A stretch of 33,901 nt of DNA, from contig JAQWQB010000140.1 of NCBI GenBank assembly GCA_029245065.1, positions 1 to 33,901 on the forward strand, given 5' to 3'. Position numbers and translations under genes: made by a program. A model generated the notes under the pieces. The model was not told the DNA's origin. It searched no databases and worked only from the letters and a program-made list of their open reading frames with translations. Positions 2,988 to 19,550 of this stretch are shown in pieces. Source of the DNA: Flavobacteriales bacterium (lineage in GTDB: Bacteria; Bacteroidota; Bacteroidia; Flavobacteriales_D; Sanyastnellaceae). Position 1 is the first letter of the stretch, and each line of letters opens with the position of its first letter.

Positions 2988-5900
2988 TTACGGACAAGCC
3001 GTATCGAATACGCCGAGGAATACGAGCATGTCAGTTGAATTCACAAGTCCATCGTTGTTCATATCTGCGAGGCAGTTGTCATTGCAACCAAAATCTCCTA
3101 GGAACATCAATAGGTCAGTCACATTAATGAATCCATCAAAGTTAAAGTCTCCCAGACAGGAATACACTTCGTCTCCTTCTACCGATCCATTGCAATTGTT
3201 ATCAATGTCTTCACCAGTGCCTGGAGCGTTTGGATATACATCTCCGTTGGTATCATCACAATCGGTGTTATCTGCTACATAGCCTGCTGGCTGAGCGCAA
3301 TCTGATAGTGACGATGCTGCATCACCGAATCCATCATTGTCAGTATCTGCGTACCATGTCAACTGAATGCACTCAAAGGCGTCGATTGAGCCGTTGCAGT
3401 TGTTGTCAATCCCTTCACCCGTTCCAGGAGCGTTTGGATACACATCGCCATTTGTGTCATCGCAATCCGTATTGTCTGCCACATAGCCTGCTGGCTGAGC
3501 GCAATCTGATAGTGACGACGCCACATCTCCGAATCCGTCGTTATCGGTATCTGCGTACCACGTTAATTGGATGCACTCACTTGCGTCAATCGAACCGTTG
3601 CAATTGTTGTCAATTCCTTCAGCGGTTCCCGGGGCATTCGGATAAACATCTCCATTTGTGTCATCACAATCGGTGTCATCTGCCACATATCCCGCTGGTT
3701 GATCGCAGTCAGTTAAAGATGAAGCTGCATCTCCAAACCCATCGCTATCGGTATCTGCGTACCACATTAATGGAAGGCATTCCGTAGCATCAATTGAGCC
3801 GTTGCAGTTGTTGTCTACCCCTTCGGCTGTTCCTGGAGCATTCGGATAAACGTCATCACGCGTATCATCGCAATCGGTGTTGTCTGAAATGTACCCTGCT
3901 GGTTGAATACAAGCGCTGATACTTACGGCATCGTTCCCGAAACCATCGGTATCTGAATCCTCGTACCATGTTACTGGTGTACACGTCTGTTCAAGGATTT
4001 GCGTGTATTGAGATGAGCAGTACGAAATGGTTTGATCACTTACGACACAAGCCGTGTTGGTGAAATCAACGAGTGCTTCACCGATAAAAATATCGTCTAC
4101 ATACCACCCTTCAGCGGCAACGAAGTTATCAGAAGCCAGGCGCCAACGAATTGAAATGGTCTGTCCTGTGAATGAACTCAGGTCAACAATCGTTTGAATG
4201 AATCCGCCACTGCCTCCAGACCAAGCGTTTTGACCGCTCAGTGCACTTGCAGGGTTCACATTCAAGGTAGAATTGTATCCGTTTTGCGTAATCAATGCTT
4301 CTGCGTCCACCCATGTTGTTCCGTCAGTAGATGTTTCAAGTACACCTCCATCCCAGTTCGCTTCGGTATTGTAGAAATGCCAGAAGCTCAAGAAAGTTGA
4401 AGCTGTAATGTTCGTTACGTTGGGCAACACCAAGTACTGGTCACTCTCCTGTCCTGGATCTGATGCGAACCATGAATTTGACGGACTATTTGCTCTCGTA
4501 GTGCTTACGCTCCAATCAAAACCAGGGATGTTGTTTGTTACGGTATATCCAGCAACTCCTGATTCAAGGTTGTCTTGAAATTCAATGATAGAGAAAGGTG
4601 TCGCCGGGGCAGAAACCTCATAAGTACATTGAATCGTAGCTCCGTCTGGTAAGTCACCTAGGTCGAAGGTCAAGTCATTTCCCACTGCGGTAACCGTGCA
4701 AGAAGCTGATCCTGGAACATAATCTACATCCGAAGGAACAAGATCTGTCACTACTACATTCGTTACCAAACCACCCGTGTTGTTAAAAATGTCTAACGTC
4801 ACGGTCATGGTACCGTTTGCTTCGATGGTATCGCTGCTTGTTTTCGAGATGCCAACAGCGCAGTCTCCACTCACATCGAATGATTCAACACTGTCATTTA
4901 CATCACTAGAAGAGCCTTGATCGGCATTCACACCGAGACCTCTTCGGGCAAAAGCTTCCCAAATCAAGCATTTGTTGACACCCCCATTTAGGAGTTCATC
5001 TGCCAAAAGGATTGCATCTCTACCATCCACAAATCCGGGAGAGCACGGTTGCAATTTCAACCCTTCAACAACCAGTTCAAGTGCGATGTTATTTCCGCCT
5101 GTTCCATTGTACAAATCGGGATCGTATCCATATTCGTCAATCAGTAACCAGGTCATATCCCACAACATAGTGCACCATACTGACCCCACACCGTGCGGAA
5201 TACTTACGGAGTTGATGTCTTGATACGTGAATGGGTTAACACTCATGTCTGTTGAGTAAGGAAAAGGTCTAATTCCAGGGCCGTTGATACCAGCACCGAT
5301 GGAATAGTTTCCGATTCCGCGTGCTTCCGCACCAAAATCTGCTGCGTCCATGGTCATGATCAATCCGAAGTAATCACTCCAACCTTCACCCATTTGCTCG
5401 TTGTTGAAGAGGCAACCTACGTTGTCAGCTCCGGCAGTAAGACGGGTTGAAATACCGTGTCCGTATTCGTGTGTAATAACGCCGTTGTCTAGGTCGCTAT
5501 CTCTGTTGACTGATGCCAACAGTGAAATCGTTCCACTGATTGTTCCAGCGGCAATGGCTGCCTTAATGGTATTACCATCGGCTTGTGAAATCATCACCGA
5601 AGGAATCGTCAAGCCTGGATCTACTCCACCCATTCCGAAAGGTGCATCACCAGTGTTTTGAGCTACAATAACACCAATGGCTCCTTCGTTTTCCGCGTTC
5701 AATACTTTGTCTGTGAAGTTACAGTTACCGCGGTCTATCAGTACGATTTTTCCGGCGTAACCCGTGCCTACTAACGCACTGCATGCCTCTGTTGGGTTGG
5801 CCGTACCGTCGTCAGCAACAATTAAGTCTCCTGTCCACGTTCCCACTTGCGGACCAAAAGCAGCGACCACTCCGTTGTAACCTGTTCCATCAACTGTAAT

Positions 5901-7148
5901 TGACGGTGCAGCGGCAATATCCCACTCAAACATTTGCATTCGTGGCTGTTGGCCATCTGGAGGCGTTCCAAAGTTGGCATTGTTCAAGCCAGAACCATCT
6001 TGTGCGTCTGCAATAACTTCATCGTTTCCGAGACCACCATTTCCGTAGTTGTTTACCTGGAAGTTTCCACTTTGTTCGTCGAAACCGTAGTTGTACATCA
6101 CATCGTGGATGAGGTTATTCCAGTAAAACAAGTTGGTAATTGCAGCGGCCTGGTAATTTACAGGCTCTTGTGTTAAGTCCAATGGGAAGTCGAAATCCAA
6201 GGTTGCTCCACCATCTGGTGAGAACCCTGGCACGTTGTCGTTGTCTCTATCTTCACTTGCCCAAACGTTGTTACCTCTGGTGATGGTGTATTCTGCACCC
6301 GAAGCACCATCCGTATCGTGCCATCCAAAAGGAGATGCTGATAGGTTGTTATTCCAAGGCGATGCTTGTAACGTTCTTCCCCCGTTGTATGGAGACTCAA
6401 ACGGCTCAGCATAAACGTTGTAGCTATTGGCCAACAAAGGGGCTGCTGGTGTGAGCATAGGATTTCTCCCAGCGCTTACGTGTTCTACGCAGTGGGTGGT
6501 GTGATCGTGTGTTTCGTTATCAAATTCACACGTGCTGATCCAATTGTCTTTTTCCAACACGGTTCCATTGGCGGCATCTACTCTAATTTGCCACCAGTTC
6601 ACGTTGTCATTCGCTCTGATTACTAATTCCCACGCTAGTCTAACTTCACTTTCATTGACTTTCACGTACACCAAGTTGAACGGAATGTCTTCAGAAGAAA
6701 TACCCGACTTGCTGAGCATTCCTTGCTGGTCCTGTCCTGAAGCTTGCTGTAGCATCTCCATATCTGAGATGGTAAGTTTCAGATGACTCGCGGCGAACTG
6801 CAAGGCTTGTTCAACGGTGAGCTGAGGCTGACCGCCAGCTACCATTCTTTCGATACCATGTAGGAATCGGTCGTTGATATGTACCACTTTCCCATCAGGA
6901 AGAGCAATCACATTTAAGATCGCATTGTGAACACGAATACCGTCAACACGCTGTTGAATGTAGTGAACAGAATGGCCTCGTCGTTTATTGACTACTTCGC
7001 GGAGGTGCAAAGCGCCAGCAAGTTCACGTTGTTTGAACTGCTCTTTTTCAATAAGTTGTTGTTGCAATTGATCCCAAGAAGTTTGGGCGAAGGATGGCAC
7101 CGACATTAGCATCACGGCCAATGTGATTAAAGTTAGTATATGTCGCAT
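2988..7148 (-). CDS. Secreted M36 (fungalysin) zinc metalloprotease with PA domain, MopE-like repeats and dockerin-like C-terminus
   Basis: A 1386-residue exported zinc endopeptidase. It has a signal peptide (residues 1-21, cleavage after SFA), then a fungalysin-type propeptide (about 35-200). The M36 catalytic domain carries H560-E-Y-G-H564, with E588 (GEGWSDY) as third zinc ligand. A protease-associated (PA) domain is inserted ahead of the active site (about 425-530). Downstream are a DUF11-like domain (about 762-846), a jelly-roll/MAM-like domain (about 855-1025), four 68-residue Cys/Asp-rich MopE-type repeats (from W1061) and two dockerin-like calcium loops (DFNFDGFINVTD, DMNNDGLVNSTD) at the end. 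It probably digests extracellular protein. I see no classic type IX secretion C-terminal domain; the dockerin-like end sits in its place. The gene stands alone and ends at a bidirectional terminator. Catalytic assignment is firm; the adhesive or anchoring role of the tail is inferred. Confidence 0.93.
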   Translation of the reverse strand: MRHILTLITLAVMLMSVPSFAQTSWDQLQQQLIEKEQFKQRELAGALHLREVVNKRRGHSVHYIQQRVDGIRVHNAILNVIALPDGKVVHINDRFLHGIERMVAGGQPQLTVEQALQFAASHLKLTISDMEMLQQASGQDQQGMLSKSGISSEDIPFNLVYVKVNESEVRLAWELVIRANDNVNWWQIRVDAANGTVLEKDNWISTCEFDNETHDHTTHCVEHVSAGRNPMLTPAAPLLANSYNVYAEPFESPYNGGRTLQASPWNNNLSASPFGWHDTDGASGAEYTITRGNNVWASEDRDNDNVPGFSPDGGATLDFDFPLDLTQEPVNYQAAAITNLFYWNNLIHDVMYNYGFDEQSGNFQVNNYGNGGLGNDEVIADAQDGSGLNNANFGTPPDGQQPRMQMFEWDIAAAPSITVDGTGYNGVVAAFGPQVGTWTGDLIVADDGTANPTEACSALVGTGYAGKIVLIDRGNCNFTDKVLNAENEGAIGVIVAQNTGDAPFGMGGVDPGLTIPSVMISQADGNTIKAAIAAGTISGTISLLASVNRDSDLDNGVITHEYGHGISTRLTAGADNVGCLFNNEQMGEGWSDYFGLIMTMDAADFGAEARGIGNYSIGAGINGPGIRPFPYSTDMSVNPFTYQDINSVSIPHGVGSVWCTMLWDMTWLLIDEYGYDPDLYNGTGGNNIALELVVEGLKLQPCSPGFVDGRDAILLADELLNGGVNKCLIWEAFARRGLGVNADQGSSSDVNDSVESFDVSGDCAVGISKTSSDTIEANGTMTVTLDIFNNTGGLVTNVVVTDLVPSDVDYVPGSASCTVTAVGNDLTFDLGDLPDGATIQCTYEVSAPATPFSIIEFQDNLESGVAGYTVTNNIPGFDWSVSTTRANSPSNSWFASDPGQESDQYLVLPNVTNITASTFLSFWHFYNTEANWDGGVLETSTDGTTWVDAEALITQNGYNSTLNVNPASALSGQNAWSGGSGGFIQTIVDLSSFTGQTISIRWRLASDNFVAAEGWYVDDIFIGEALVDFTNTACVVSDQTISYCSSQYTQILEQTCTPVTWYEDSDTDGFGNDAVSISACIQPAGYISDNTDCDDTRDDVYPNAPGTAEGVDNNCNGSIDATECLPLMWYADTDSDGFGDAASSLTDCDQPAGYVADDTDCDDTNGDVYPNAPGTAEGIDNNCNGSIDASECIQLTWYADTDNDGFGDVASSLSDCAQPAGYVADNTDCDDTNGDVYPNAPGTGEGIDNNCNGSIDAFECIQLTWYADTDNDGFGDAASSLSDCAQPAGYVADNTDCDDTNGDVYPNAPGTGEDIDNNCNGSVEGDEVYSCLGDFNFDGFINVTDLLMFLGDFGCNDNCLADMNNDGLVNSTDMLVFLGVFDTACP
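3153..3968 (-). repeat. Four tandem 204-bp coding repeats (MopE-like motif)
   Basis: Inside the M36 protease gene, units of exactly 68 codons repeat four times, each beginning WYxDxDxDGFG and containing AGYxxDxTDCDDT, VYPNAPGT and DNNCNGS. The unit ends fall near 3765, 3561, 3357 and 3153. For example CTGAGCGCAA recurs at 3291 and 3495, 204 bases apart. The Asp/Cys pattern matches the MopE-type putative metal-binding motif, likely calcium-stabilised. Near-identity of the two C-terminal units at DNA level suggests recent duplication or gene conversion. Confidence 0.9.
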
Positions 7149-7283
7149 TAGAGATCCTATGGTTAATGAGGCTATAAGATACGGAGAATTCCTTAAACGA
7201 ATATCACAGAAGAGTGTAGGGTGCCGAGTTTAGAGTAGGGAGTGCCGATTTTTGTGTATGGAGTTGCGAGGATTGACCTTTTT

Positions 7284-7368
7284 GTAGCCACGAGCCTAGC
7301 TCATGGGAAAATTTTTCATTGGGCGTGGGATTATAGATTAAAAAACCACGAGCTAGGCTCGTGGGTAC
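7284..7368. repeat. Inverted pair of REP-like palindromes
   Basis: The stretch 7149-7397 between two minus-strand genes has no convincing gene. It holds two hairpins in opposite orientation. The first, at 7284-7306 (+), is GTAG then CCACGAGC-CTA-GCTCATGG, with one arm mismatch. The second, at 7346-7368 (read on -), is GTAC then the perfect palindrome CCACGAGC-CTA-GCTCGTGG. A GTAG tetranucleotide ahead of a short imperfect palindrome, and inverted pairing of two such units, are hallmarks of REP elements mobilised by RAYT (TnpA-REP) transposases. No transposase lies in this window. A third copy is at 9281-9303. Confidence 0.75.
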
Positions 7369-7397
7369 AAAAGCGCAAGGTGTGGCGGATTTGGAGT

Positions 7398-8048
7398 TTA
7401 ACTCCCTTTCGTTTTGTAGAAGAGCCATAAATTTCCGTCCAACAATTCTACCACTTTCGTGGTTTTTCTTCGAATTGGCAGTGAACTCCAGGTTCGCACG
7501 TAGTAAGGGAAAGGCTTGTGCAACTGAATAAAATCAGGGCTTTTGATGATGAGTGCCTCGAACATGGGGTCATCTCCATTGCCTTCTACATTGCCGTGGG
7601 TGGTATCTGCTCTTAACAAGGTAAGCTCAGCTGTAAAGTGTGGCTTGCCCCCTTCAAAACGCATGATGGGGGGGGAAGGTTCCAGATCGTAATTATAGTA
7701 AGTTATGGAGTCCCATTGTTGGTTCTTGACGTGCTCGGTATCTGATGCTTTGAAGAAATACACCTCACTGAAAGTGTAATTGTGTTGAAATGCCTTCGCA
7801 ACTTGGTAGTTCTTCAGGTCCAGTTCTTTTTGAATGTTTTCTGCGCGTTTCACGAAGCCTTTTTCTAAGGCTAAGTTGATAGCGATTTGATTCTCTGGCA
7901 AACGTACTAAGAGTGCTCCGGTTTTGAGTTCTTGAATTTGGGTTACGGCCAGTTCTCTGAACCATTCATTGGACGGTCGCGTTTCGTCTTGGGCAAACCC
8001 AAAACACGTTAGAAAACAAAAGGCGCATCCAAAAAGAACTTTCATCAT
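7398..8048 (-). CDS. Secreted protein of unknown function
   Basis: A 216-aa protein that I do not recognise as a named family. Two ATG codons are adjacent (8048 and 8045), and either gives a signal peptide of the form KVLFGCAFCFLTCFGFAQ, ending near residue 20. The mature part is soluble and mixed in composition. It includes EWFRELAVTQIQELKTGALLVRLPENQ, an alpha/beta middle with many Tyr and Phe, and a C-terminal segment TTKVVELLDGNLWLFYKTKG, with no transmembrane helix. The pattern FRELAVTQIQELKTGALLVRL suggests a conserved Flavobacteriales periplasmic protein. It follows trhO on the same strand after a 42-base gap and may be cotranscribed. A REP-like pair lies just past its 3' end. Confidence 0.75.
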   Translation of the reverse strand: MMKVLFGCAFCFLTCFGFAQDETRPSNEWFRELAVTQIQELKTGALLVRLPENQIAINLALEKGFVKRAENIQKELDLKNYQVAKAFQHNYTFSEVYFFKASDTEHVKNQQWDSITYYNYDLEPSPPIMRFEGGKPHFTAELTLLRADTTHGNVEGNGDDPMFEALIIKSPDFIQLHKPFPYYVRTWSSLPIRRKTTKVVELLDGNLWLFYKTKGS

Positions 8049-8090
8049 TCCCTAAAGATACGCCTCAAGCTTGAAATATCAGTTCAATTT

Positions 8091-9128
8091 TTAGCGAGAA
8101 GATTTGAATTTTAACGCTTCAGACCTTCCTTTCTTGAAGATTTTGTTGCTGTTTAGTTTCCCTTTTCGCAGTTCCTTTTGATCTTCTATTGGCAGCGCGT
8201 GTGTTTCTTTGCATGTATTGGAGCAGCAATTATTCATTTCTGTCTTGCACTTTTCGCACTGAATAAACAAGAGGTTGCAAGCTACGTTGGAGCAATTGGT
8301 GTGTTCATCGCAGGCTTCGCCACATTGGTGACATATAGCAATGACGTCATCTGAGATGCGCTCTGCTCTTCGCTCATCAAAAACGAAGTTTTTACCAATA
8401 AACCGATTCTCCAGTCCTTCTTCATTCACTTGACGCGTGTATTCAATGATACCGCCTTCCAACTGATGCACATTTTCATAGCCTTGGTGCTTAAACCAAG
8501 CGCTTGCTTTCTCGCACCGAATTCCCCCTGTGCAATACATCACAATGTTTTGGTCTTCTTTGCCTTCCAGCATTTCTGTCACCACCTCTATTTCTTCACG
8601 GAAGGTATCTACATCTGGTGTGACTGCCCCCTTAAAATGTCCTACCTCTGATTCATAGTGGTTTCGCATATCTATCAAGATCGTATCATCTTGGGACGTC
8701 AACTCGTTAAACTCAGCTGCCGACAAATGTTTTCCAATGTTGGTGACATCGAAGGTCTCATCATTCAACCCGTCTGCAACAATCTTCTCACGGATTTTGA
8801 TCTTCAGTTTGTAGAACGATTTGCCATCGTCTTCCACTGCTACATTCAGTCGAATTCCGTCTAAGAATGTGACCGAAAAGAGTTGCTTTTTAAAGTTTTC
8901 GAATTCAGCCGTTGGCAGGCTAATTTGGGCGTTAATTCCTTCATTTGAGACATACGTTCGTCCGTAGACGCGCATTTCGTCCCAATTCGAATAGAGGAAG
9001 TCACGGAAAAAGGAAGGACTTTTAATGTGCGCGTATTGGTAGAAGGAAAGCGTCATTCTTTCTTCATCGCTTTGCTTCATGCGCTCAATTAGCACCTTCC
9101 TGTCAATTTGATTGTGTAGCTTTTTCAT
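8091..9128 (-). CDS. trhO: tRNA uridine(34) hydroxylase TrhO (rhodanese family)
   Basis: The protein of 345 aa belongs to the YceA/TrhO family, which uses oxygen to hydroxylate U34 of certain tRNAs to 5-hydroxyuridine. It has an N-terminal acylphosphatase-like domain (about residues 20-115, with SNEGINAQISL), a rhodanese domain (about 140-240) with active-site cysteine in CTGGIRCEKA, and a C-terminal Cys-rich segment. That segment (CHQCGEAC... CEKC... CC) probably binds zinc and is usual in the long form of the family. The start was set at the ATG at 9128. The frame extends upstream only to a TTG at 9191, and a TAnnTTTG promoter box at 9196-9189 would put that TTG upstream of transcription. 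It is a stand-alone or two-gene unit with the secreted protein downstream. Confidence 0.92.
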   Translation of the reverse strand: MKKLHNQIDRKVLIERMKQSDEERMTLSFYQYAHIKSPSFFRDFLYSNWDEMRVYGRTYVSNEGINAQISLPTAEFENFKKQLFSVTFLDGIRLNVAVEDDGKSFYKLKIKIREKIVADGLNDETFDVTNIGKHLSAAEFNELTSQDDTILIDMRNHYESEVGHFKGAVTPDVDTFREEIEVVTEMLEGKEDQNIVMYCTGGIRCEKASAWFKHQGYENVHQLEGGIIEYTRQVNEEGLENRFIGKNFVFDERRAERISDDVIAICHQCGEACDEHTNCSNVACNLLFIQCEKCKTEMNNCCSNTCKETHALPIEDQKELRKGKLNSNKIFKKGRSEALKFKSSR

Positions 9129-9188
9129 CACGGTACAATTACAAGTTATACGTGTTTGCGGTACAATCCTTTGCAGGATAATGTGGTG

Positions 9189-9196
9189 CAAAGATA
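9189..9196 (-). promoter_or_regulatory. Bacteroidota -7 promoter box for trhO
   Basis: The minus strand reads TATCTTTG, an exact match to TAnnTTTG, 60 bases before the trhO ATG. No TTG at the -33 position was seen, so the call rests on one element and its position. Confidence 0.5.
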
Positions 9197-9208
9197 GGAA
9201 AGTGGATT

Positions 9209-9235
9209 GAGTTGGGAGTTGGGAGTTGGGAGTTT
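9209..9235 (+). repeat. 7-bp tandem repeat (GAGTTGG, about 3.8 copies)
   Basis: Units start at 9209, 9216, 9223 and 9230; the last is degenerate and incomplete. The repeat lies upstream of the trhO promoter box and just before a segment shared with the 7235-7302 intergenic region. It looks like a slippage-prone microsatellite with no coding role. Confidence 0.7.
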
Positions 9236-9280
9236 GGAGGGGCGAGTTTTGTGTATTAAGTTGTGAGGATTGACCTTTTT

Positions 9281-9303
9281 GTAGCCACGAGCCTAGCTCG
9301 TGG
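9281..9303 (+). repeat. REP-like palindrome, third copy
   Basis: GTAG followed by the perfect hairpin CCACGAGC-CTA-GCTCGTGG. About 40 bases to its left (GTTGTGAGGATTGACCTTTT) are nearly identical to the flank of the copy at 7284, so the mobile or copied unit is longer than the hairpin. The remaining gene-free stretch 9304-9488 shows no convincing feature other than an ordinary AT-rich leader for the next gene. Confidence 0.72.
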
Positions 9304-9488
9304 TATCATTTAACATATATATCTTGTTCAAAACTCACCTTAATCCTCCACAATACGCCCTAATTGCTTTCGTTAATTTCTCAGCCACCCGTGAATTCTC
9401 AAGTTACTGTTAACAACTATTAAGGGTACCCCTGGTGGTACAACTGACTTGTTTCGTAACTTGAAATGCACTCTAAACCTGGAAGAAG

Positions 9489-9680
9489 ATGTTGGACTTT
9501 TGCAAGAAGATTTTGACCAAAGTGAGTTTTGACCGCATGTTATTCACCAAAGAGCTTTCAAAGGCCATCAAACGCCTTAACAAAGAAGAGCTTGTGAACT
9601 TGCGTACCTGGTGTAACCAACGATTTGGGAACATCTATGGTGATGTCATCAACGAATCATTCACCCTAGCTTTGGCTTAG
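9489..9680 (+). CDS. Conserved small protein of Bacteroidota, unknown function
   Basis: A 63-aa protein with GGAAGAAG just before the ATG. The text ([20 protein letters not shown], then a Lys/Glu-rich helix and [15 protein letters not shown]) resembles a small protein I remember from many Bacteroidota genomes, mostly helical and without signal peptide or membrane segment. Its function is unknown to me. The fixed order of a basic amphipathic helix, an acidic turn and a W-C-x5-G motif suggests a small folded or binding protein rather than chance. Its TAG at 9678-9680 interlocks with the TAA of queG on the other strand (shared bases 9677-9680), so the two genes converge without room for a terminator. 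Confidence 0.75.
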
Positions 9681-10615
9681 TCATTCAAAAAACGAATCGA
9701 TTCTTTTAATCCTTCGTAGCCTGCGCGTTTTACTGCAGAGCCGCGAAACACTTCATTGAATACATCACGTGTTATTTCATTCCACTCTTGAGAAGTCATC
9801 TCAAGCAGTGATTCATGCGGCATAAAAGCGGGTTCGTTGTGTTCTTTTGCGAACCGGTTCCACGGACAAACCTCTTGACAAATGTCGCAGCCAAACATCC
9901 AGTTTTCCATCTTTCCTTTGTACTCAACTGGTATGGCATCTTTTAATTCGATCGTGAAATAGGAAATGCACTTGCTACCGTCCACAACATAGGGTTGTAT
10001 AATGGCTCCTGTTGGACAAGCGTCTATGCAAGCTGTGCAAGATCCACAGTGGTCTGTCACAGGCCCATCTTCCTTGAGCTCCAGATCTATAATGAGTTCC
10101 GAAATAAAGAAAAAACTTCCCTCTTGCTTTCGAAGGAGGTTGCTGTGCTTTCCAATCCAACCTACACCGCTTTTCGCCGCCCAAGCTTTGTCTAGCACTG
10201 GCGCCGAATCAACAAAAACCCTTCCTTCTACTTGACCCAGTTCATCTTGTAAGTCATCGAGGAGATCTTTCATCTTACGTTTGATGACGTGGTGGTAGTC
10301 CTTTCCGTAAGCGTATGTAGAAATTTTAGGCGCAGTTGGATCGTGTTGTTTTGACGTCGTAAAGTAGTTGTAGATCAGCGAGACAACTGCTTTCGCCCCA
10401 GGGACCAGTAACGTTGGGTCCAATCGTTTATCGAAATGGTTGGCCATGTAGCCCATTTCGCCATGCATATTCATATTGAGCCAACGCTCAAGCCGAGGTG
10501 CCTCTTCTTCCAAAAACCCAGCCTGACTAATCCCACAATGGAGAAAGCCATGTTTCTGAGCCAATGACTTCAGGATTTGACTGTTTTTTTCTGCTTGAAG
10601 ATCTTGTGACGTCAT
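9677..10615 (-). CDS. queG: Epoxyqueuosine reductase QueG
   Basis: The 312-aa protein reduces epoxyqueuosine to queuosine, the last step of tRNA queuosine biosynthesis, using cobalamin and two [4Fe-4S] clusters in the cytoplasm. The N-terminal half carries the family pattern around [14 protein letters not shown]-like text (here [16 protein letters not shown]) and [20 protein letters not shown], which includes the catalytic Asp region and cobalamin-domain features. Ferredoxin motifs follow: [16 protein letters not shown] (about residues 192-207) and [11 protein letters not shown] (about 245-255). Length is short of the longest homologues because the C-terminal HEAT-like part is minimal. Its start lies 3 bases after the ruvB stop, so it is in an operon with ruvB. 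Its stop interlocks with that of the small gene on the plus strand. Confidence 0.95.
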
Positions 10616-10618
10616 GGG

Positions 10619-11638
10619 TTAGAATAACGTCTGATCTGAGCCTCCTGGAATTTTGCCTAGGTGCTTATAGGCGAGTTCTGTTACCTGTCTTCCACGTGGT
10701 GTGCGCACAAGGAACCCTTCTTGGATCAAGAATGGCTCGTACACTTCTTCCAATGTACCAGCATCTTCACCAACGGCAGTGGCAATGGTATTGAGGCCTA
10801 CAGGTCCTCCTTTGAATTTATCTATGAGGGTCGAAAGAATACGGTTGTCCATTTCATCCAGACCTCGTCCGTCTACATTTAAGGCGTCCAATGAATAATG
10901 GGTGATTTTAAGGTCTATTTGTCCGTCTCCCTTTATTTCCGCGAAATCTCTTACCCTTCGCAACAATGAATTCGCAATACGAGGTGTTCCACGGCTTCTG
11001 CCAGCGATTTCTCCAGCGGCTTCTACTTTTGTTGGAATCTTCAAGATCCCTGCACTTCGTTCAATGATGTCTGTAAGGGTTTTTTGATCGTAGTACGTCA
11101 GACGCAAATTGATGCCAAATCGAGCGCGTAGTGGCGATGTCAACAATCCGCTTCGGGTTGTAGCCCCAACAAGCGTAAAAGGATTCAATTCAATCTGTAC
11201 TGTTCGCGCATTGGGTCCAGTATCAATGACCAGATCAATTCTGAAATCCTCCATGGCAGAATAGAGGTATTCTTCTATGACCGGACTCATTCGGTGAATC
11301 TCATCAATGAAGAGGATGTCGTTTTCTTCGAGGTTGGTGAGCAGTCCAGCTAAGTCTCCTGGTTTATCTAGAACAGGGCCTGATGTTGTCTTGATATCAA
11401 CCCCCATTTCTTCAGCGATGATATTCGCCAGGGTTGTTTTGCCCAGTCCGGGAGGGCCATGCAAGAGTACGTGGTCCAATGCTTCCCCGCGCTGTTTAGC
11501 AGCTGCTACGAAAACACTCAAGTTATCTAGTACTTGTCGTTGTCCCGTAAAGTCATCAAATGACTTCGGGCGCAAGACACGTTCTATTTCTTTATCGCCA
11601 ACATTCGTGGCTTCCTCGTGATAATCGAAATCTTCCAT
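10619..11638 (-). CDS. ruvB: Holliday junction branch migration helicase RuvB
   Basis: This 339-aa AAA+ motor drives branch migration of Holliday junctions with RuvA during recombination and repair. Its N-terminal segment [11 protein letters not shown] is typical. Walker A is GPPGLGKT (about residues 60-67), Walker B/DEAH-like LFIDEIHRM, and sensor 1 lies in GATTRSG. An arginine-finger region and the C-terminal winged-helix domain end in [18 protein letters not shown]. Length is the family norm. ATG at 11638 follows the outer-membrane protein gene by 31 bases on the same strand, and queG begins 3 bases downstream; transcription of all three together is plausible. No LexA box was sought computationally. 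Confidence 0.97.
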
Positions 11639-11669
11639 TGTTCACTCAAATTTAGTCAAAAGAAGTTCG

Positions 11670-12299
11670 TCAAGAATTCAAATCCTTCCAGATATCACCA
11701 AATCGGATGCGAAAGCGCAATTCATACAAGGGTGCTGTGAATTGCTCATCGATTTTTCCGTTGTTGATTAACATGATTCTCAGGCCTACACCGGCACCAA
11801 TGCCAAAGTACCTCAAGAAACGGTATTCTGCTATCATGCCCGGTTCATACAAAAGCACACCTCCCTTATTCACTTCGTTGACTCCTTCTTCTAACAAGAC
11901 CCGTTCCTTGCTCAATCCGATACCTAGTTGAACCGGCATGGTAATTTCCCAACGTTTCTTACGGACAAAGATGTAGTCGAAATAAGCCGCTACATAGGAC
12001 ATTCTCAATTCGCGCTGTTGTTCTGTGGCTTCTCCTTCATTGTAGATGCGTACGTTGTCGTGTTCCAACCAATGAAAGCCGATTCCAAGTGCCACTTTGT
12101 TATTGAAGTTCGCACCTGCTTTGATTCCATAGGTTCGCACTGGTCTGCCAGTGACAAAGGAATTCCGGGTGTTGAATTTGGCTGTGAAGGATGGCTTTTC
12201 GTTAAACGCCAACCGCAGAGTATCAGACAAGCTCGGCTGTTGGGCCAACATATCTGTTGTACTTATAAAAAGAAGGCATAAAAAAAGAGTCCGTACCAT
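11670..12299 (-). CDS. Putative outer-membrane beta-barrel protein
   Basis: A 209-aa protein with a signal peptide (residues 1-19, LFLCLLFISTTDMLA followed by QQ). Its mature part alternates short amphipathic beta strands and turns: FNNKVALGIGFHWLEH, MSYVAAYFDYIFVRKKRWEI, MPVQLGIGLSKE, GIGAGVGLRIML, YELRFRIRFGDIW. This is the pattern of a small 8-to-10-stranded porin-like or OmpA-type barrel; no specific family was recognised. The ATG at 12299 and codons 1-7 lie within the terminator of the preceding cytochrome operon. The only later ATG (residue 17) would remove most of the signal peptide, so the first ATG is preferred. ruvB follows after 31 bases. Confidence 0.8.
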   Translation of the reverse strand: MVRTLFLCLLFISTTDMLAQQPSLSDTLRLAFNEKPSFTAKFNTRNSFVTGRPVRTYGIKAGANFNNKVALGIGFHWLEHDNVRIYNEGEATEQQRELRMSYVAAYFDYIFVRKKRWEITMPVQLGIGLSKERVLLEEGVNEVNKGGVLLYEPGMIAEYRFLRYFGIGAGVGLRIMLINNGKIDEQFTAPLYELRFRIRFGDIWKDLNS

Positions 12300-12328
12300 A
12301 AGCTTACGCTATAAAGGTACGGACTCTT
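12280..12328 (-). terminator. Strong intrinsic terminator of the act-cta operon
   Basis: On the minus strand AAGAGTCCGTACC (12328-12316) pairs perfectly over 13 bp with GGTACGGACTCTT (12297-12285), with an 18-base loop. The T-run covers 12286-12280. It starts 17 bases past the ctaD stop. Its right arm and U-tract also encode the first residues of the next gene (MVRTLFL). Confidence 0.88.
12312..12319 (-). promoter_or_regulatory. Possible -7 box inside the terminator
   Basis: TACCTTTA on the minus strand differs from TAnnTTTG at the last base. It spans the end of the terminator's left arm and the loop, 13 bases before the ATG at 12299. If used, the next gene would have a very short leader that lacks the complete left arm. 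Confidence 0.3.
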
Positions 12329-12345
12329 CAATAGGTTTATTGCGA

Positions 12346-14109
12346 TTAGTGCTCTTCTTCTCCTGCTTTGAGTGGAGTCGTTTGAGGCACGAAGTCTTCG
12401 TCGTAATTCGGGTTTGAGTAGTCATATGCCCAACGGTGAACTACTGGCAACTCTCCTGGCCAGTTTCCGTGAATTCTTTCCACTGGAGTAGTCCACTCGA
12501 GTGTATTCGATTTCCATGGGTTCTGTACGGCTTCTTGTCCTCTGAAGATGCTGTAGAAGAAGTTGAATAGGAACAACAACTGCGCTGCACCTCCAATGAT
12601 TGCGAATGTCGAAATGATTGGGTTCAAATCCATCACCCAGTCAAGGAATGGGAAGTTTGAATAGTCATAGTATCTACGTGGTGCTCCTGCCATTCCAACG
12701 AAGTGCATCGGGAAGAATACTCCGTATCCACAAACGATTGTAAGCCAGAAGTGAGCGTAACCAAGTTTCGTACTCATCATACGTCCGAACATCTTTGGGA
12801 ACCAGTGGTAAATACCACCAAGCATTCCGAAGATCGCAGACATTCCCATTACAATGTGGAAGTGAGCTACTACGAAGTACGTATCGTGAACGTTCACATC
12901 CAATGCTGAATCGGCAAGGATAATTCCTGTGAGACCTCCCGTTACGAACGTTGATACCAATCCTACAGAGAATAGCATCGCTGGTGTGAACTTGATGTTC
13001 CCTTTCCAAAGTGTTGTAATGTAGTTGAAGGCTTTTACCGCTGATGGAATGGCAATCAACAATGTTGTGAATACGAATACAGAACCTAAGAATGGATCCA
13101 TACCAGTAACGAACATGTGGTGACCCCATACGATGAATGAAAGGAATCCGATCGCGAGGATAGATCCGATCATGGCACGGTAACCAAAGATTGGCTTTCT
13201 ACTGTTAGTCGAAATAATTTCTGATGAAATACCTAGTGCTGGTAGAAGTACGATGTATACCTCAGGGTGACCTAGGAACCAGAAAAGGTGTTGGTACAAG
13301 ATTGGTGAACCACCTGTTACTGGTAGTGCCTCTCCTGCAATGTGAATTTCACTTAGGTAGAATGCTGTTCCTGCTGTTCTATCCATCAATAGCAATACAA
13401 CGGCAGACACCAATACTGGGAATGAAAGTACCCCAAGAATTGCTGTTACCAAGAATGCCCAAATGGTAAGTGGAAGACGTGTCATTTTCATTCCCTTCGC
13501 ACGAAGGTTGATGATTGTTACTACGTAGTTCAATCCTCCAAGAAGTGAAGAAACAACGAACAACACCATTGAAAGAAGCCACATAGTCATCCCTGTTCCT
13601 GAACCAGGCATTGCCTGAGGAAGAGCCGATAGCGGCGGATAAACCGTCCAACCACCAGATGCAGCACCGCCTTCTACGAAGAGTGAAGCAAGCATGATGA
13701 AACTAGATAGTAGGAAGAACCAGTATGACAGCATGTTCAAGAAACCTGATGCCATGTCTCGTGCTCCAATCTGAAGTGGAATCAATAAGTTTGAAAAGGT
13801 TCCAGACAATCCTCCTGTTAGTACAAAGAAGACCATGATGGTACCGTGAATAGTTACTAGAGCTAGGTATGCGTTTCTATCCAATACCCCGTCTGGCGCC
13901 CATTTTCCAAGAAGCGTTTCAAGGATTCCGAACGATTCACCTGGCCAACCCAGTTGAAGACGGAAAAGAATAGAAAGCATTACAGCTACAATACCCATCA
14001 CGATTGCCGTGATTAGGAACTGCTTCGAGATCATCTTGTGATCCATTGAGAAGACGTACTTCGAAATGAAACTCTCCTCGTGGTGATGTGCTTGTGCGTG
14101 ATCAGCCAT
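12346..14109 (-). CDS. ctaD: Cytochrome c oxidase subunit I (haem-copper oxidase, A1 type)
   Basis: This is the 587-aa catalytic subunit, which reduces oxygen to water at the haem a3-CuB site in the cytoplasmic membrane and pumps protons. Ligands seen: H88 (TIHGT) and H418 for haem a, H416 for haem a3, and H281, H330 and H331 for CuB. GHPEVY supplies the cross-linked Tyr285 and the Glu283 that marks the A1 subfamily with a D-channel end point. About twelve hydrophobic helices are evident. The N-terminal tail (AQAHHHEESF) is short and His-rich. It is the last gene of the act-cta operon, 32 bases after ctaC, followed by a strong terminator. Subunit III is not in the window and may lie elsewhere. 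Confidence 0.97.
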   Translation of the reverse strand: MADHAQAHHHEESFISKYVFSMDHKMISKQFLITAIVMGIVAVMLSILFRLQLGWPGESFGILETLLGKWAPDGVLDRNAYLALVTIHGTIMVFFVLTGGLSGTFSNLLIPLQIGARDMASGFLNMLSYWFFLLSSFIMLASLFVEGGAASGGWTVYPPLSALPQAMPGSGTGMTMWLLSMVLFVVSSLLGGLNYVVTIINLRAKGMKMTRLPLTIWAFLVTAILGVLSFPVLVSAVVLLLMDRTAGTAFYLSEIHIAGEALPVTGGSPILYQHLFWFLGHPEVYIVLLPALGISSEIISTNSRKPIFGYRAMIGSILAIGFLSFIVWGHHMFVTGMDPFLGSVFVFTTLLIAIPSAVKAFNYITTLWKGNIKFTPAMLFSVGLVSTFVTGGLTGIILADSALDVNVHDTYFVVAHFHIVMGMSAIFGMLGGIYHWFPKMFGRMMSTKLGYAHFWLTIVCGYGVFFPMHFVGMAGAPRRYYDYSNFPFLDWVMDLNPIISTFAIIGGAAQLLFLFNFFYSIFRGQEAVQNPWKSNTLEWTTPVERIHGNWPGELPVVHRWAYDYSNPNYDEDFVPQTTPLKAGEEEH

Positions 14110-14141
14110 TTTTCCCTTGTATTACGTTGTTCCTGTCTTGA

Positions 14142-15569
14142 TTAATCGATGGTTGCTGTTTGATCTCCAGCGTCTGCTGGTTCAGCAACGTTATCATCAG
14201 CAGGACTTACATCTTCTGATTCGTTGTTCTCTTTTGACTCATCAACATAGAAAGTCTTCTGTTGTTCAAGCCAAGTTTTGTATTGCTCTTCTGATTGCAC
14301 AACTACCTTCATTTGCATATTGAAGTGAGCCGCTCCGCATACCTTATTACAAAGCAATAGGTAATCAAATTCTTCGTTATCAGTGATCATTCGCATGCTA
14401 TCAGTTGTGATAGTAGGCGTCATCTTGAATCGTGTTGGTACTCCTGGTACACAGTTCATTTGTGCACGGAAGTGAGGCATGTAAGCCGAGTGAATTACAT
14501 CTCTTGATCGGAAAATGAATTCTACTTCTTGTCCAACCGGAAGGTGTAGTTCACGAACCACTTGGTCATCCAAACCAGCTTCCCACTCCATGACGTCACC
14601 AATGGTGTTGTTGTCAAGACCTAGGATACGTTGAAGTTGAAGTTCCAGACGGTAAATCTTTTCTCTTTTCGCTTCAATAGCTGCTTCTGTCAAAACCGTA
14701 GCCTTGTCAGATTCCATCATTTCTTCGATTTCAGCAATACGGTTCATGTTCACGTCTTTCCATGCGTCGTTGCCATGATGGTCATCTCCTTCTGCATGTT
14801 CGTGATCGCCATGATCATGCCCGTGATGGTCAGCTTCGTGAAGTTGGTGTTCCAATTCTTCCTTTTCAGCTGCCAACAAGCCACGCTCGTAAGCCAATTC
14901 CATTTTCAACTTGTCAACTTGCCCTTCGATTTCAGCTGTTACTTCTTCAATCCCATCATCTGTTACAATTCCCAATGGGTTTGTTGGCGTGATGAGGTTG
15001 TAAGAAGACAAACCGAATTCGCTATCTGTTCCAGCGTACCGAGCTGTCCAGTCAAATTGCTTTGAATAGATTTCTACACGTAGCGCTCCATCCTCTACTT
15101 CTCCAGTCATGGCATTCCATGTCTGCAAACCGTAGATGATTACAATGGCAAGCACCAATGAAGGAACTACTGTCCAAACCAACTCGAGTCGGTTATCATG
15201 TGGGAAGAACTTCGCTTTCCTATCCTTCTTGTAGTAGTACTTCGCAGAGAAGTAGAACAACAGTGTGTTTACTGCGAAGAATACAATGGTAATGATGATC
15301 ATGTTGAAACTCATCAACGTATCAACACCAACACCGTGTTCAGAAGCAGACACTGGAAGGTAATCTCCATATTCAATAAAGAGATAAATCACTCCTGCGT
15401 AGAACAACACCATGAATACAAGCCAAAGCATTGCGTTCATTTTGTTGTCTGCAAATGAGATTTCTTCTTCTCTCGTTTTGCGGAGCTTAGCTGTTAAATC
15501 GTACACGCGGCCTAGTTGCAACAATGCTGCAATACCAACTGCGATGACTAAAATGATAAGAATCTTCAT
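14142..15569 (-). CDS. ctaC: Cytochrome c oxidase subunit II with His-rich coiled-coil insertion
   Basis: This 475-aa subunit takes electrons at its CuA site and passes them to subunit I. CuA ligands seen: H360 (VIHSAYMPHF) and C407, C411, H415, M418 in CNKVCGAAHFNM. The N-terminal helices (about 3-20, 46-66, 88-108, 130-150) follow the Bacteroidota form. The start is the ATG at 15569; the frame begins only six bases earlier at a TTG. Odd feature: between QFDWTARYAG (171-180) and the cupredoxin strand ELHLPVG (about 340-346) lies roughly 130-150 residues, much more than usual. It is Glu/Lys/Leu-rich and coiled-coil-like on both sides of a His/Asp run (about 241-266, with at least ten His). 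The C-terminus adds an acidic tail. No CxxCH haem motif, so it is not a caa3-type fusion. Confidence 0.93.
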   Translation of the reverse strand: MKILIILVIAVGIAALLQLGRVYDLTAKLRKTREEEISFADNKMNAMLWLVFMVLFYAGVIYLFIEYGDYLPVSASEHGVGVDTLMSFNMIIITIVFFAVNTLLFYFSAKYYYKKDRKAKFFPHDNRLELVWTVVPSLVLAIVIIYGLQTWNAMTGEVEDGALRVEIYSKQFDWTARYAGTDSEFGLSSYNLITPTNPLGIVTDDGIEEVTAEIEGQVDKLKMELAYERGLLAAEKEELEHQLHEADHHGHDHGDHEHAEGDDHHGNDAWKDVNMNRIAEIEEMMESDKATVLTEAAIEAKREKIYRLELQLQRILGLDNNTIGDVMEWEAGLDDQVVRELHLPVGQEVEFIFRSRDVIHSAYMPHFRAQMNCVPGVPTRFKMTPTITTDSMRMITDNEEFDYLLLCNKVCGAAHFNMQMKVVVQSEEQYKTWLEQQKTFYVDESKENNESEDVSPADDNVAEPADAGDQTATID

Positions 15570-15590
15570 GACCAATTCTTTTCTTTCTTA

Positions 15591-16856
15591 TTAAATGTGG
15601 AAATCCTTACTCTCTTGCAAGAATGGATGATTCTTAGGTACAAGTGGTGCTTTTGACAGCGCTCTGAATACCGAAAATATGAATAGACCGAGGAACATAA
15701 TGAACATACCAACCTCTAATAAACCGAAATGGTTGTGATCGAACATGGTTCCAGGAATAACTAGCAGATATGTGTCCACGAAGTGCCCAACAAAAATCAA
15801 CAGTCCAGTTGGAATGATGAAATATGGGTTTCGTTTTGCATCACGCGAGATCATCACGTAGAATGGAATCGCGAAATTGATGAAGAACATCAAAATGAAT
15901 GGCGTTTTGTATTCAGTAAAGAATCGCTGAGTAAAGTACGTTACTTCTTCAGGAATATCTGAGTACCAGATCAACATGAATTGACTAAACCACAGGTACG
16001 CCCATAGCATTGAAATGGCAAACATCCATTTTGCTAGATCGTGTACGTGAGACTGTGTTAAGTCTTGGAAATAACCTTTCGTTCTGAGGTAAAGGATAGA
16101 TACCAGCGCAAAGATCATTGCTCCTACCCACATTCCAGAGAAGAGGTACCAACCGAATAGCGTAGAGAACCAGTGGGTGTCAATAGACATAATCCAATCC
16201 CAAGCTAAGGTTGAAGAGAACACGGCAAAGAACACCAAGAATAGTGCACTTCGTCTGTGTACTTTAAAGTGTCTTTCAATACTTGCTTCTTTGTCTTCTT
16301 CCAGTGACCATTTTCTGAAAAGACGAGCAAAAATCAAGAATACAGCCAAGTAAACAAATGTTCTCCCCCAGTAGAATAATGGGCTGAAGTATGCTGACTT
16401 GTTTGCAATAATTTCATCGTAGTTGGTATTGAGCACAGCTCCAGTTTCCGTAGCCTCTGCACAGTGTGCATGTCCGTCTGCCTCAATCACATATTCGCAG
16501 TACAACGTTGAGTCCATCCAGTGGTACAGGTGGTGTACGTGTGCTTGTCCTGCAATCAAGACAATCAATATCACACCCAGACCGATTGGTAAGTAACCAA
16601 CGAACATGGCTTCGAACATACGTTTCACGTAAGCAGACCAACCTACCTCTGCGGCATACTGCAGTGCATAGAAGAATAGCGCACCCAATGCAATGGCAGT
16701 AAAAAAGAAGCCATTCACGAGCAGGTTTGCCCAAAATCGTTGATTGAGGTGGGTATCACCTCCTGATGTAAACAGCCCGACGAGTAATCCGACGATTCCA
16801 ATCACCATTAAGGCAATTGATACTGTTTTAGCTTTTCCTTCGAACTTGAAATCCAT
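15591..16856 (-). CDS. actF: Alternative complex III subunit ActF (quinol-oxidising membrane subunit)
   Basis: A 421-aa polytopic membrane protein (about ten helices) matching the second NrfD/PsrC-like subunit of alternative complex III. Typical segments are VSIALMVIGIVGLLVGLF near the start, the long acidic/His loop with cysteines (HVHHLYHWMDSTLYCEYV), LVFFAVFSSTLAWDWIMSID in the middle and IPTGLLIFVGHFVDTYLLVIPG towards the end. In known complexes ActF is homologous to ActC and flanks it in the membrane; its proton-channel or quinone role is less certain. It lies 33 bases after actE and 21 bases before ctaC, linking the quinol oxidoreductase to the oxidase in one transcript. Confidence 0.93.
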   Translation of the reverse strand: MDFKFEGKAKTVSIALMVIGIVGLLVGLFTSGGDTHLNQRFWANLLVNGFFFTAIALGALFFYALQYAAEVGWSAYVKRMFEAMFVGYLPIGLGVILIVLIAGQAHVHHLYHWMDSTLYCEYVIEADGHAHCAEATETGAVLNTNYDEIIANKSAYFSPLFYWGRTFVYLAVFLIFARLFRKWSLEEDKEASIERHFKVHRRSALFLVFFAVFSSTLAWDWIMSIDTHWFSTLFGWYLFSGMWVGAMIFALVSILYLRTKGYFQDLTQSHVHDLAKWMFAISMLWAYLWFSQFMLIWYSDIPEEVTYFTQRFFTEYKTPFILMFFINFAIPFYVMISRDAKRNPYFIIPTGLLIFVGHFVDTYLLVIPGTMFDHNHFGLLEVGMFIMFLGLFIFSVFRALSKAPLVPKNHPFLQESKDFHI

Positions 16857-16889
16857 GGTCGCGTTCTTCGTAAAGTGTGTTTCGTTCTA

Positions 16890-17594
16890 TTATCCTTGAG
16901 TAGTGTCATCAGCATCTGGCTCAGCTGCATCAGTTGCTGCATCTGCCTTCGGCTCCATCACATTCCCATTTTCATCGAATTCTGGCATTGTTCCGCCATT
17001 CTGCAATACTTGCACGTATTGAATCACTTGCCAACGTTCTTTTTGAGAAAGTTGAGAAGCATGTGATCCCATCAATCCTTTTCCGTACTGAATTGAGTGG
17101 TACATGTTTCCTTCTGGCAGGTCTTTCAATTTCTCACTGTAAGAAGGGATTCCTTCGATGTGACCATTCTTCGAAATGGTTCCATTTCCTTTTCCTTCTT
17201 CACCATGGCAGTGGATGCACATGATTTCGTAGATCTCTTGACCTTCTTCAATGTTTGCCTGTGTTGTTGGCAACGGGCTTGTCAGTCCAGCTCCAGCTGC
17301 CTCATAACCTTCCGTTGTGTTTGGGTATGGGTAAGGCATTCCAAATGCCATTTGGTCTCCCATGTAGGCAATTGAACCTTGAGCTGGCTTTCTTGCCGAC
17401 ATGCGTGAATTCAACGAATCAACTTGGCTTTCACCAAAATGATACGGATCCATGCCGTAGTCAACATAAGCTTCAATAGCCGGTGAGCGGTACATGTCAG
17501 GCATGTACTCTAATCCAGGACTATTTTCGTCGCTGATGCACGAACCCAATAGGGCCGCCACACAGAGAAATAAGAATGTATTTTTAAGCAACAT
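16890..17594 (-). CDS. actE: Alternative complex III subunit ActE (monohaem cytochrome c lipoprotein)
   Basis: A 234-aa lipoprotein with signal LFLCVAALLGSC (lipid-modified Cys at 19). Its class-I cytochrome c domain has one haem site, CIHCH (about residues 125-129), and a candidate axial Met in GLMGSH. Conserved upstream text (YMPDMYRSPAIEAYVDYG and AYMGDQMAFGMPYPYPNTTEGYEAAG) is typical of ActE rather than of free cytochromes. The C-terminus is acidic and Ala-rich (DAATDAAEPDADDTTQG). It accepts electrons from ActA and delivers them towards the oxidase's CuA on the periplasmic side. It follows actD by 10 bases. Confidence 0.94.
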   Translation of the reverse strand: MLLKNTFLFLCVAALLGSCISDENSPGLEYMPDMYRSPAIEAYVDYGMDPYHFGESQVDSLNSRMSARKPAQGSIAYMGDQMAFGMPYPYPNTTEGYEAAGAGLTSPLPTTQANIEEGQEIYEIMCIHCHGEEGKGNGTISKNGHIEGIPSYSEKLKDLPEGNMYHSIQYGKGLMGSHASQLSQKERWQVIQYVQVLQNGGTMPEFDENGNVMEPKADAATDAAEPDADDTTQG

Positions 17595-17604
17595 AGCGTT
17601 GATC

Positions 17605-18141
17605 TTACTCGTAATCTTTAATGCTTAGTTCAACAAGGGGTGTGTCTTTCAACATCCCTTCAATTTCGTCCGCAGAATTACTGTGGTTCTCATCTGTTGT
17701 AATTTCCATTACGAACATATGGTCAGTTGTTCTAGGGTCAGGGTTGGTAGCGGGCATTCCTGGCAACGTTCCATTTCTTAGGAAGTAGGTAATTGCCATT
17801 CCGTGTGCGCCACACAGTACAGAAAACTCAAACGTTACTGGAATGAAAGCTGGCAAGTTCTCAATAAGAGAGAAACTTGGCTTACCTCCAATGTTCATTG
17901 GCCAGTCGTGGATCATGAAGTACCACATACCTAACAGTGCTAAGCATGTTCCTCCGGTTGCATACATGAAGGCAGCGATTGCCAAACGAGTTCGTTTTAC
18001 TCCGATGATTGGATCCAATCCGTGAAGTGGGAACGGTGAGTACACCTCCTTCACTTTCAATCCTTTCGCAACGAGTGTTTCTGCAGCGCGCATTAACACA
18101 TCGTCATCATCGTACATCGCATGAAAGACTTTTTTGCTCAT
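17605..18141 (-). CDS. actD: Alternative complex III subunit ActD (DUF3341)
   Basis: A 178-aa membrane subunit of the DUF3341 family. It has a cytoplasmic ferredoxin-like N-terminal part (KKVFHAMYDDDDVLMRAAETLVAKGLKVKEVYSPFP), the HGLDPIIGVKRTRL motif, and two transmembrane helices (about 62-82 and 97-118), with a short acidic C-terminal region containing FVMEITTD. It carries no cofactor and has a structural role in the complex. Spacing to actC and actE (10 bases each) shows tight operon packing. Confidence 0.94.
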   Translation of the reverse strand: MSKKVFHAMYDDDDVLMRAAETLVAKGLKVKEVYSPFPLHGLDPIIGVKRTRLAIAAFMYATGGTCLALLGMWYFMIHDWPMNIGGKPSFSLIENLPAFIPVTFEFSVLCGAHGMAITYFLRNGTLPGMPATNPDPRTTDHMFVMEITTDENHSNSADEIEGMLKDTPLVELSIKDYE

Positions 18142-18151
18142 CTTCTACTGC

Positions 18152-19537: not shown

Positions 19538-19550
19538 GGATAGCGGTCTT

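Follow-up and report, generated by a model that had tools for sequence, protein, structure and literature searches.

An act-cta terminator that may double as the promoter and short-leader start of an outer-membrane barrel gene in Flavobacteriales

The window, the whole stretch of 33,901 nucleotides that was analysed (Flavobacteriales bacterium, assembly GCA_029245065.1, contig JAQWQB010000140.1), carries on its minus strand an oxidase gene cluster followed by a gene for a small outer-membrane protein. Pfam searches 5' of ctaD identified COX2, CBB3-type and multihaem cytochromes, ActD and NrfD, which marks an alternative-complex-III and oxidase (act-cta) cluster. Beyond the barrel gene lie ruvB and then queG, whose start is at 10615 on the minus strand; the gene order ctaD-barrel-ruvB is kept in relatives. 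A 1386-amino-acid fungalysin-like M36 peptidase with a PA domain and MopE-type metal-binding repeats is encoded elsewhere in the window (2988-7148, minus strand), and a weak dockerin match in it fell under the cut-off. The features of the junction are listed in the direction of transcription.

12346..14109, minus strand: ctaD (cytochrome c oxidase subunit I), terminal gene of the act-cta cluster; Pfam COX1, E 2.6e-139
12348-12346, minus strand: ctaD stop codon TAA
12316..12328, minus strand: left arm of the putative terminator, AAGAGTCCGTACC, non-coding; co-varies with the right arm in relatives
12312..12319, minus strand: -7-box-like TACCTTTA, with TACC in the arm and TTTA in the loop; one mismatch to the Bacteroidetes consensus TAnnTTTG
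12315-12298, minus strand: loop of the putative terminator
12309..12311, minus strand: TAG in the barrel frame, which rules out a start 5' of the loop
12307..12307, minus strand: predicted barrel transcription start, from the box spacing of -12 to -5 in PMC9723704; 8-nt leader
12297..12299, minus strand: barrel ATG; A and T at the loop edge, G paired at the start of the right arm
12285..12297, minus strand: right arm of the putative terminator, GGTACGGACTCTT, coding (end of the ATG, Val, Arg, Thr, Leu)
12280..12286, minus strand: T7 tract of the putative terminator, inside Leu-Phe-Leu codons of the signal peptide
11670..12299, minus strand: gene for a 209-amino-acid outer-membrane beta-barrel protein; signal-peptide-like N-terminus MVRTLFLCLLFISTTDMLA
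11647..11654, minus strand: TAAATTTG, a consensus -7 box 8 nt 5' of the ruvB ATG
10619..11638, minus strand: ruvB, the gene 3' of the barrel gene; Pfam RuvB_N, E 1.4e-78

The barrel protein had no Pfam match at E 0.001, and its score against OMP_b-brl (18.7 bits) was below the cut-off of 28.7; the same family was matched by 13 of 34 barrel homologues (E <= 0.05). An AlphaFold2 model with a pLDDT of 88 found OmpA as its top Foldseek match (E 2.7e-6), along with the barrels of OmpX, NspA and OprF. Judged by this model, the product is an OmpA/OmpX-like outer-membrane barrel.

The preliminary description of this DNA had claimed a 13-bp stem and T-run that end the act-cta transcript, and all of the features it named were found on the minus strand. 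The stem comprises 13 bp, with a possible 14th pair (G-T), and lies 17 nt past the ctaD stop. Its predicted energy is -26.9 kcal/mol (z = -4.1; none of 200 shuffles was equally stable), and the T-run follows at once, so that a stable stem, an immediate T-run and a nearby upstream stop codon occur together. The ctaD hairpin probably ends the act-cta operon, since a stricter scan of the minus strand from 25031 to 7364 found it to be the sole terminator-like site. A looser scan of 5000-20000, whose loop limit of 8 missed the ctaD hairpin, listed three more minus-strand sites in that stretch (17459, 15036 and 10137) among 17 sites in total, vs 12.8 in shuffles. The pattern CCGTANCTTTN{3,18}GNTRCGG has a single match in the 3.19-Mb genome, the ctaD-barrel junction. 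The sole sub-threshold Rfam match, the amino-acid leader-peptide attenuator Thr_leader, scored 21 bits against a gathering score of 55 (E 0.32) and was rejected.

The right arm and T-run encode M-V-R-T-L-F-L. The earlier statement that stem and T-run hold the ATG and the first seven codons is therefore correct for the codons and needs amendment for the start codon, of which only the G is in the stem. ATG 12299 appears to be the only usable barrel start, because the loop TAG (12311-12309) blocks initiation 5' of the loop, and the first alternative downstream, an ATG at codon 17, lies past the signal peptide, which would be lost. A downstream start, raised in the preliminary description as an outcome that would remove the overlap, was thus not upheld.

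A 344,527-base sample of the same genome, of which the window is a part, contained 23 co-directional pairs whose first gene is followed by a terminator; in six of them, a count made independent of gene-caller starts found that the second gene has an in-frame start codon within or next to the hairpin. The gene caller had set the start farther downstream in all six flagged pairs, the barrel among them; by eye, the barrel was the only one whose downstream start is worse. The G046 sample gave 5 flagged pairs out of 23, none of them convincing by eye. A separate case is lptC (L065:6640-7227, plus strand; Pfam E 1e-9), which starts at a TAATG on the preceding stop, upstream of a strong terminator-like hairpin whose T6 lies within lipoprotein-signal-like codons. 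It is a possible translation-through relative of the ctaD-barrel junction.

Comparison with the family of the window revealed that the arrangement recurs. The barrel gene was found in 43 of 114 genomes, and 41 of these 43 supplied a set of 43 loci. Seven of the loci had no ctaD end in the stretch (L011, L017, L040, L043, L044, L047 and L048); rows left out were L002 (the distant second copy of a genome), L032 and L033 (on contigs equal in length to those of L004 and L005), and L045 (G005) and L046 (G012), each a fragment or weak match. Among the 36 complete ctaD-barrel loci, the hairpin overlaps the barrel start in 24, ten have an ordinary terminator and then a separate start, and two fit neither group: in L036 the barrel gene is 1.2 kb away and L027 is without a terminator. 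The GC-rich L027 (genus g19) has a long stable hairpin at its barrel start region, without a T-run; here the terminator may have been lost and the structure kept.

In the overlapping loci the hairpin spans the open start region of the barrel gene, and an in-frame start lies in the loop or right arm in 22 of 24 (g1, g3, g4, g5, g6, g8, g11 and two lineages within g16); the only ATG of the two g15 loci is at the left-arm foot. Seven of the 22 (L001, L003, L006, L008, L009, L010 and L014) have no upstream in-frame start. The other 15 have an upstream in-frame start too (six in g3, seven in g6, L007 and L041), and the in-hairpin start is our assignment there. The start codon differs among overlapping loci (ATG, GTG or TTG), and a right-arm CGG faces a left-arm CCG in all 24, including L008, which did not pass the stricter terminator scan.

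The wider order was covered by a search of 245 genomes, of which 71 have the barrel gene, 48 of them outside the family. From this search L090-L109 and L115, which repeat known places, were left out. Twenty-two of the 48 were covered; the barrel gene adjoins ctaD in 15 (families f8, f9, f10 and f12), and in seven the stretch examined yielded no match to ctaD (six in f2, one in f5). The start lies in the arm in five of the 15 order loci (L110, L111, L114, L129 and L131) and the ATG right after the T-run in eight; L128 and L130 are ambiguous. In family f10 the junction reads TACCTTTG-TTAG-GTG in L110 and L111 and TACTTTTG-ATAA-GTG in L114: left arm and loop carry a TAnnTTTG box without mismatch, and after a gap of 4 nt comes GTG-CGG-ACT-TTT-TTT, with an in-frame stop directly 5' of the GTG. 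Counted over family and order, two families have in-hairpin starts at the ctaD-barrel junction; these starts span 12 lineages in 11 genera, and in seven of the lineages they are unambiguous. L130 (G290) keeps the hairpin and the Arg-Thr-Phe-Phe frame, and its in-frame start codons lie only 57-60 nt upstream, within ctaD; a frameshift, an assembly error, an unusual start and coupling are all possible there.

Genomes lacking the gene served as natural controls. Of 26 genomes without a barrel match two gave no hit, and 23 ctaD ends were used (L133-L154 and L156). A strict-scan terminator was found at 21 of these and no hairpin at one; by eye, a CCGTAnC-type hairpin was seen at none of the 23. The ruvB gene lies 80-139 nt downstream in 22 and 814 nt in one. 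On a quick tree of 74 rows the barrel-less state requires two changes, which fits loss of the barrel gene. The in-hairpin state requires seven changes on this tree (g15, g3 and g6 counted as in-hairpin, three rows long-branched) and the separate state four; because of these seven changes, a single origin of the in-hairpin state across families is not shown. Within the family, a ctaD and RuvB tree of 42 rows (35 labelled) gave two changes for overlap vs separate, with overlap on either side of the midpoint, and would fit an old overlap lost twice. Since the lineages are related, the locus counts are not independent.

The preliminary description had proposed comparing conservation of the stem in relatives, and the result, overlap at 24 of 36 complete family loci with arms that co-vary, makes its observation stronger than stated as far as sequence comparison can carry it. 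Family arms were paired in 160 of 169 cells (13 distinct pairs), the best of 2000 partner shuffles reaching 152. Family and order arms together (39 loci, 11 positions) were paired in 269 of 275 cells (25 distinct pairs; best of 5000 shuffles 244). The alignments are anchored on CCG/CGG, and in the family test the anchors were picked for maximal pairing, which favours the observed value; kinship among the sequences inflates the arm-pair counts. Both arms change together, for example at the codon after Arg (ACT to ATT, ACA or GCG). As the left arm of the window is outside both coding regions, the complementarity of the arms points to selection as a hairpin, and its recurrence in related genera suggests that selection keeps the interlocked junctions. 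Codon usage is supporting evidence only: phenylalanine within the four codons after the arm Arg is TTT 27 times and TTC once (21 distinct rows), vs TTT:TTC ratios of 83:84 and 60:104 in codons 2-12 of two genome samples. This count placed 25 of 27 loci, with the L010 row mis-anchored, and AT-rich lineages confound the excess.

A near-consensus -7 box across the left arm and loop had also been claimed, and TACCTTTA, with its one mismatch, is a candidate for it; the enrichment of the box in relatives supports the claim. Within the genome of the window, TANCTTTG occurred 20 times 5' of genes in the sample vs 1.9 expected, and TANCTTTA seven times vs 4.3; the window's own box is, on these counts, a weak form that is barely enriched in its genome. 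Among relatives, 31 distinct hairpins from 19 lineages were compared, and 16 of them (13 lineages) hold TAnnTTTG with at most one mismatch in left arm and loop, five times exactly; means over 29 permuted motifs were 3.48 and 0.07, respectively. It ranks first of 30 letter permutations; second comes GTNNATTT (12 of 31), which can lie across the same conserved GTAnCTTT. In control ctaD terminators the box was found in none of 10 at separate loci and one of 21 distinct ones at barrel-less loci. With right arms included, TAnnTTTG is only second of 30, because the right arm and T-run match permuted motifs, and barrel-less hairpins gave 2 of 22. In the bases before the start it occurs in 8 of 12 lineage representatives and ranks first, the next permuted motif reaching five. 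Exact boxes occur in L007, L110, L111, L114, L119 and L120. All 10 separate loci have a box with at most one mismatch 5' of the ATG; by eye the gap is 4-5 nt. A box within one mismatch was absent from both g15 loci and from six of seven g6 loci, the seventh, L031, being doubtful, and from 7 of the 15 order loci (L113, L116, L121 and L128-L131). In two genome samples (the window plus L049-L068, and L069-L088), terminators after genes carried an exact box in 0 of 36 and 0 of 44 cases, and one within a single mismatch in three, that of the window included, and one. On these counts the barrel gene usually seems to have a promoter to itself, and in many of the overlapping lineages promoter and terminator seem to have merged.

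A -33 TTG/TTTG element is absent at the window box, and 93 consensus boxes, from this genome and from that of a relative, showed no enrichment of it either (3 of 47 and 6 of 46); the accessible part of PMC7366714 reports it as not identifiable in F. johnsoniae. A sigma-70 scan called no promoter at the junction. In F. psychrophilum the accessible text of PMC9723704 places the -7 box at -12 to -5, and this spacing predicts a leader of 8 nt in the window (GTAAGCTT, in which no Shine-Dalgarno sequence was found), of 0 nt in g3 and of 1 nt in g8 and in L003 and L006. Across the same two sets of upstream sites, an ATG stands exactly 4 nt past TAnnTTTG at 7 of 47 and 7 of 46 vs about one per offset farther on. 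Leaderless mRNAs may be common in the window's family; in F. psychrophilum, PMC9723704 gives, in the part accessible, a leaderless share of 5.5% of mRNAs.

Folding was predicted for the two kinds of transcript. The earlier claim that inner transcripts would be without the full left arm agrees with the predicted start, which lies 5 nt past the box and would drop the whole arm. The claim that read-through folds the start codon away is supported by prediction for the initiation region and not supported for the codon itself in the window: the unpaired probability of -3 to +15 is 0.15 on read-through vs 0.56 on the inner transcript, whereas that of the AUG is 0.54 vs 0.33. L010 is likewise reversed (0.38 and 0.23). 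Among the 16 boxed loci (of 24, by the rule of at most one mismatch), -3 to +15 is less unpaired on read-through in 15; in the sixteenth, L031, whose box is doubtful, this region is paired alike on both transcripts. The start codon is buried on read-through (unpaired at most 0.02) in 9 of 16.

From the anatomy, recurrence, arm co-variation, box enrichment and predicted folding observed above, we infer promoter activity, a start point, termination and a translational effect. The reading towards which we lean gives the act-cta terminator a second role, as promoter and short-leader start for the barrel gene: read-through RNA would fold the initiation region, and inner RNA would be without the left arm. 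In act-cta RNA, the 50-base ctaD-barrel junction would act as an intrinsic terminator. At the DNA level, its left arm and loop would carry the -7 box of the barrel promoter, and barrel transcripts would begin in the loop, a few bases 5' of the start codon and without the left arm. The barrel's own RNA could then not fold the terminator within its coding region, and its start would be open; were the promoter 5' of the left arm, barrel mRNA would terminate in its own signal peptide. Read-through RNA from ctaD would keep both arms, with the initiation region folded and poor translation expected. Polymerase coming from ctaD would meet the -7 box first and the stop signal after it, and would so cross the barrel promoter before stopping; interference is predicted, a consequence that the preliminary description did not mention. 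The switch proposed earlier is plausible and has good reasons behind it. Its description as insulation may hold for read-through RNA and does not at the DNA level, where the T-run is downstream of the -7 box; read-through occlusion with likely promoter interference is the better name. Tentatively, and with less confidence than in the reading itself, terminator, promoter, short-leader or leaderless start and signal-peptide codons could be seen as sharing bases in a recurring chromosomal element, the barrel being expressed only from the inner promoter and in mutual exclusion with act-cta transcription through RNA occlusion and DNA interference.

Plain compaction offers a rival account, in which a deletion pushed terminator and gene start together and the overlap was tolerated, since the signal peptide accepts Arg-Ile/Thr-Phe-Phe; start folding would have no regulatory role, and promoter and terminator would each be normal. 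A hairpin arm that runs into a T-run should encode a signal peptide with ease. On the tree, at least two changes would account for the separate arrangement, and eight of the 15 order loci have their ATG just past the T-run and not inside the hairpin. However, only one convincing overlap was seen by eye in 46 terminator-followed co-directional pairs of two genome samples, the in-hairpin start recurs with co-variation in 12 lineages of two families (unambiguous in seven), and the position of the box inside the hairpin is left unexplained, and we consider compaction unlikely. In a translation-coupled attenuator, ribosomes ending ctaD would restart upstream, traverse the hairpin and block termination, and barrel expression would follow ctaD translation. 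The six g3 loci, whose ATG overlaps the ctaD stop (TAATGA) with the frame open, suit this account, as do the two g15 loci with an ATG at the left-arm foot, the upstream ATG of L128, the seven g6 loci with frames open upstream and a GTG within ctaD, and the upstream in-frame starts of L007, L041, L129 and L131. Such coupling is nevertheless impossible in the window, where the loop TAG intervenes, and in L110, L111 and L114, with stops before the GTG; L003, L006, L008, L009, L010 and L014 have no upstream start, and codons 3-7 of the g3 upstream frame vary in amino acid among genomes by eye. We judge attenuation improbable. Most doubtful of all, in our estimate, is a device in which interference at the DNA is the key effect and silence of the oxidase operon would raise barrel expression. 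The geometry would allow it: on one strand, the T-run (12286-12280) comes after both the box (12319-12312) and the predicted start (12307), and the boxes counted in relatives, being in the left arm or the loop, likewise precede the T-run. The effect could be weak, however.

Under the reading of a terminator that doubles as promoter and start, four signals, for transcription stop and start, translation start and protein export, appear to be packed in the same bases and bound to each other by co-variation across genera. The same locus offers natural controls, in relatives that have the parts side by side and in others that lack the barrel gene, and gene separation based on overlap becomes directly testable in bacteria without Shine-Dalgarno sequences.

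A limited look at titles and abstracts of the open PMC literature, which is not proof of novelty, found none describing a terminator-start or terminator-promoter overlap of this kind. The ordinary terminator after ctaD, present at the ten separate loci and at 21 of 23 barrel-less ends (strict scan), shares the position of the element; its parts stand side by side, whereas the overlapping loci share bases. In IS200 tnpA, according to the accessible text of PMC12594629, a stable 5' stem-loop that sequesters the ribosome-binding site limits translation, which is similar; that structure is in the gene's own transcript, however, and the barrel's own transcript should be without the hairpin, making IS200 the weaker parallel. 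The nearest known logic appears to be that of phage T4 I-TevI and genes e and soc. As far as the accessible part of PMC2988022 describes them, I-TevI, I-TevII, I-TevIII, segB, e and soc have a hairpin that sequesters the ribosome-binding site and a late promoter whose position keeps late RNA from folding that hairpin; as proposed for the barrel gene, upstream RNA folds the initiation region and RNA from the inner promoter is too short at its 5' end to fold. The barrel hairpin differs in being, putatively, also the intrinsic terminator of the upstream operon, in having start and signal-peptide codons as an arm, with no Shine-Dalgarno sequence, and in belonging to a recurring chromosomal locus. 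Because a Shine-Dalgarno sequence is absent from the predicted leader, the barrel element would not be a member of the T4 I-TevI kind, but it may work like one.
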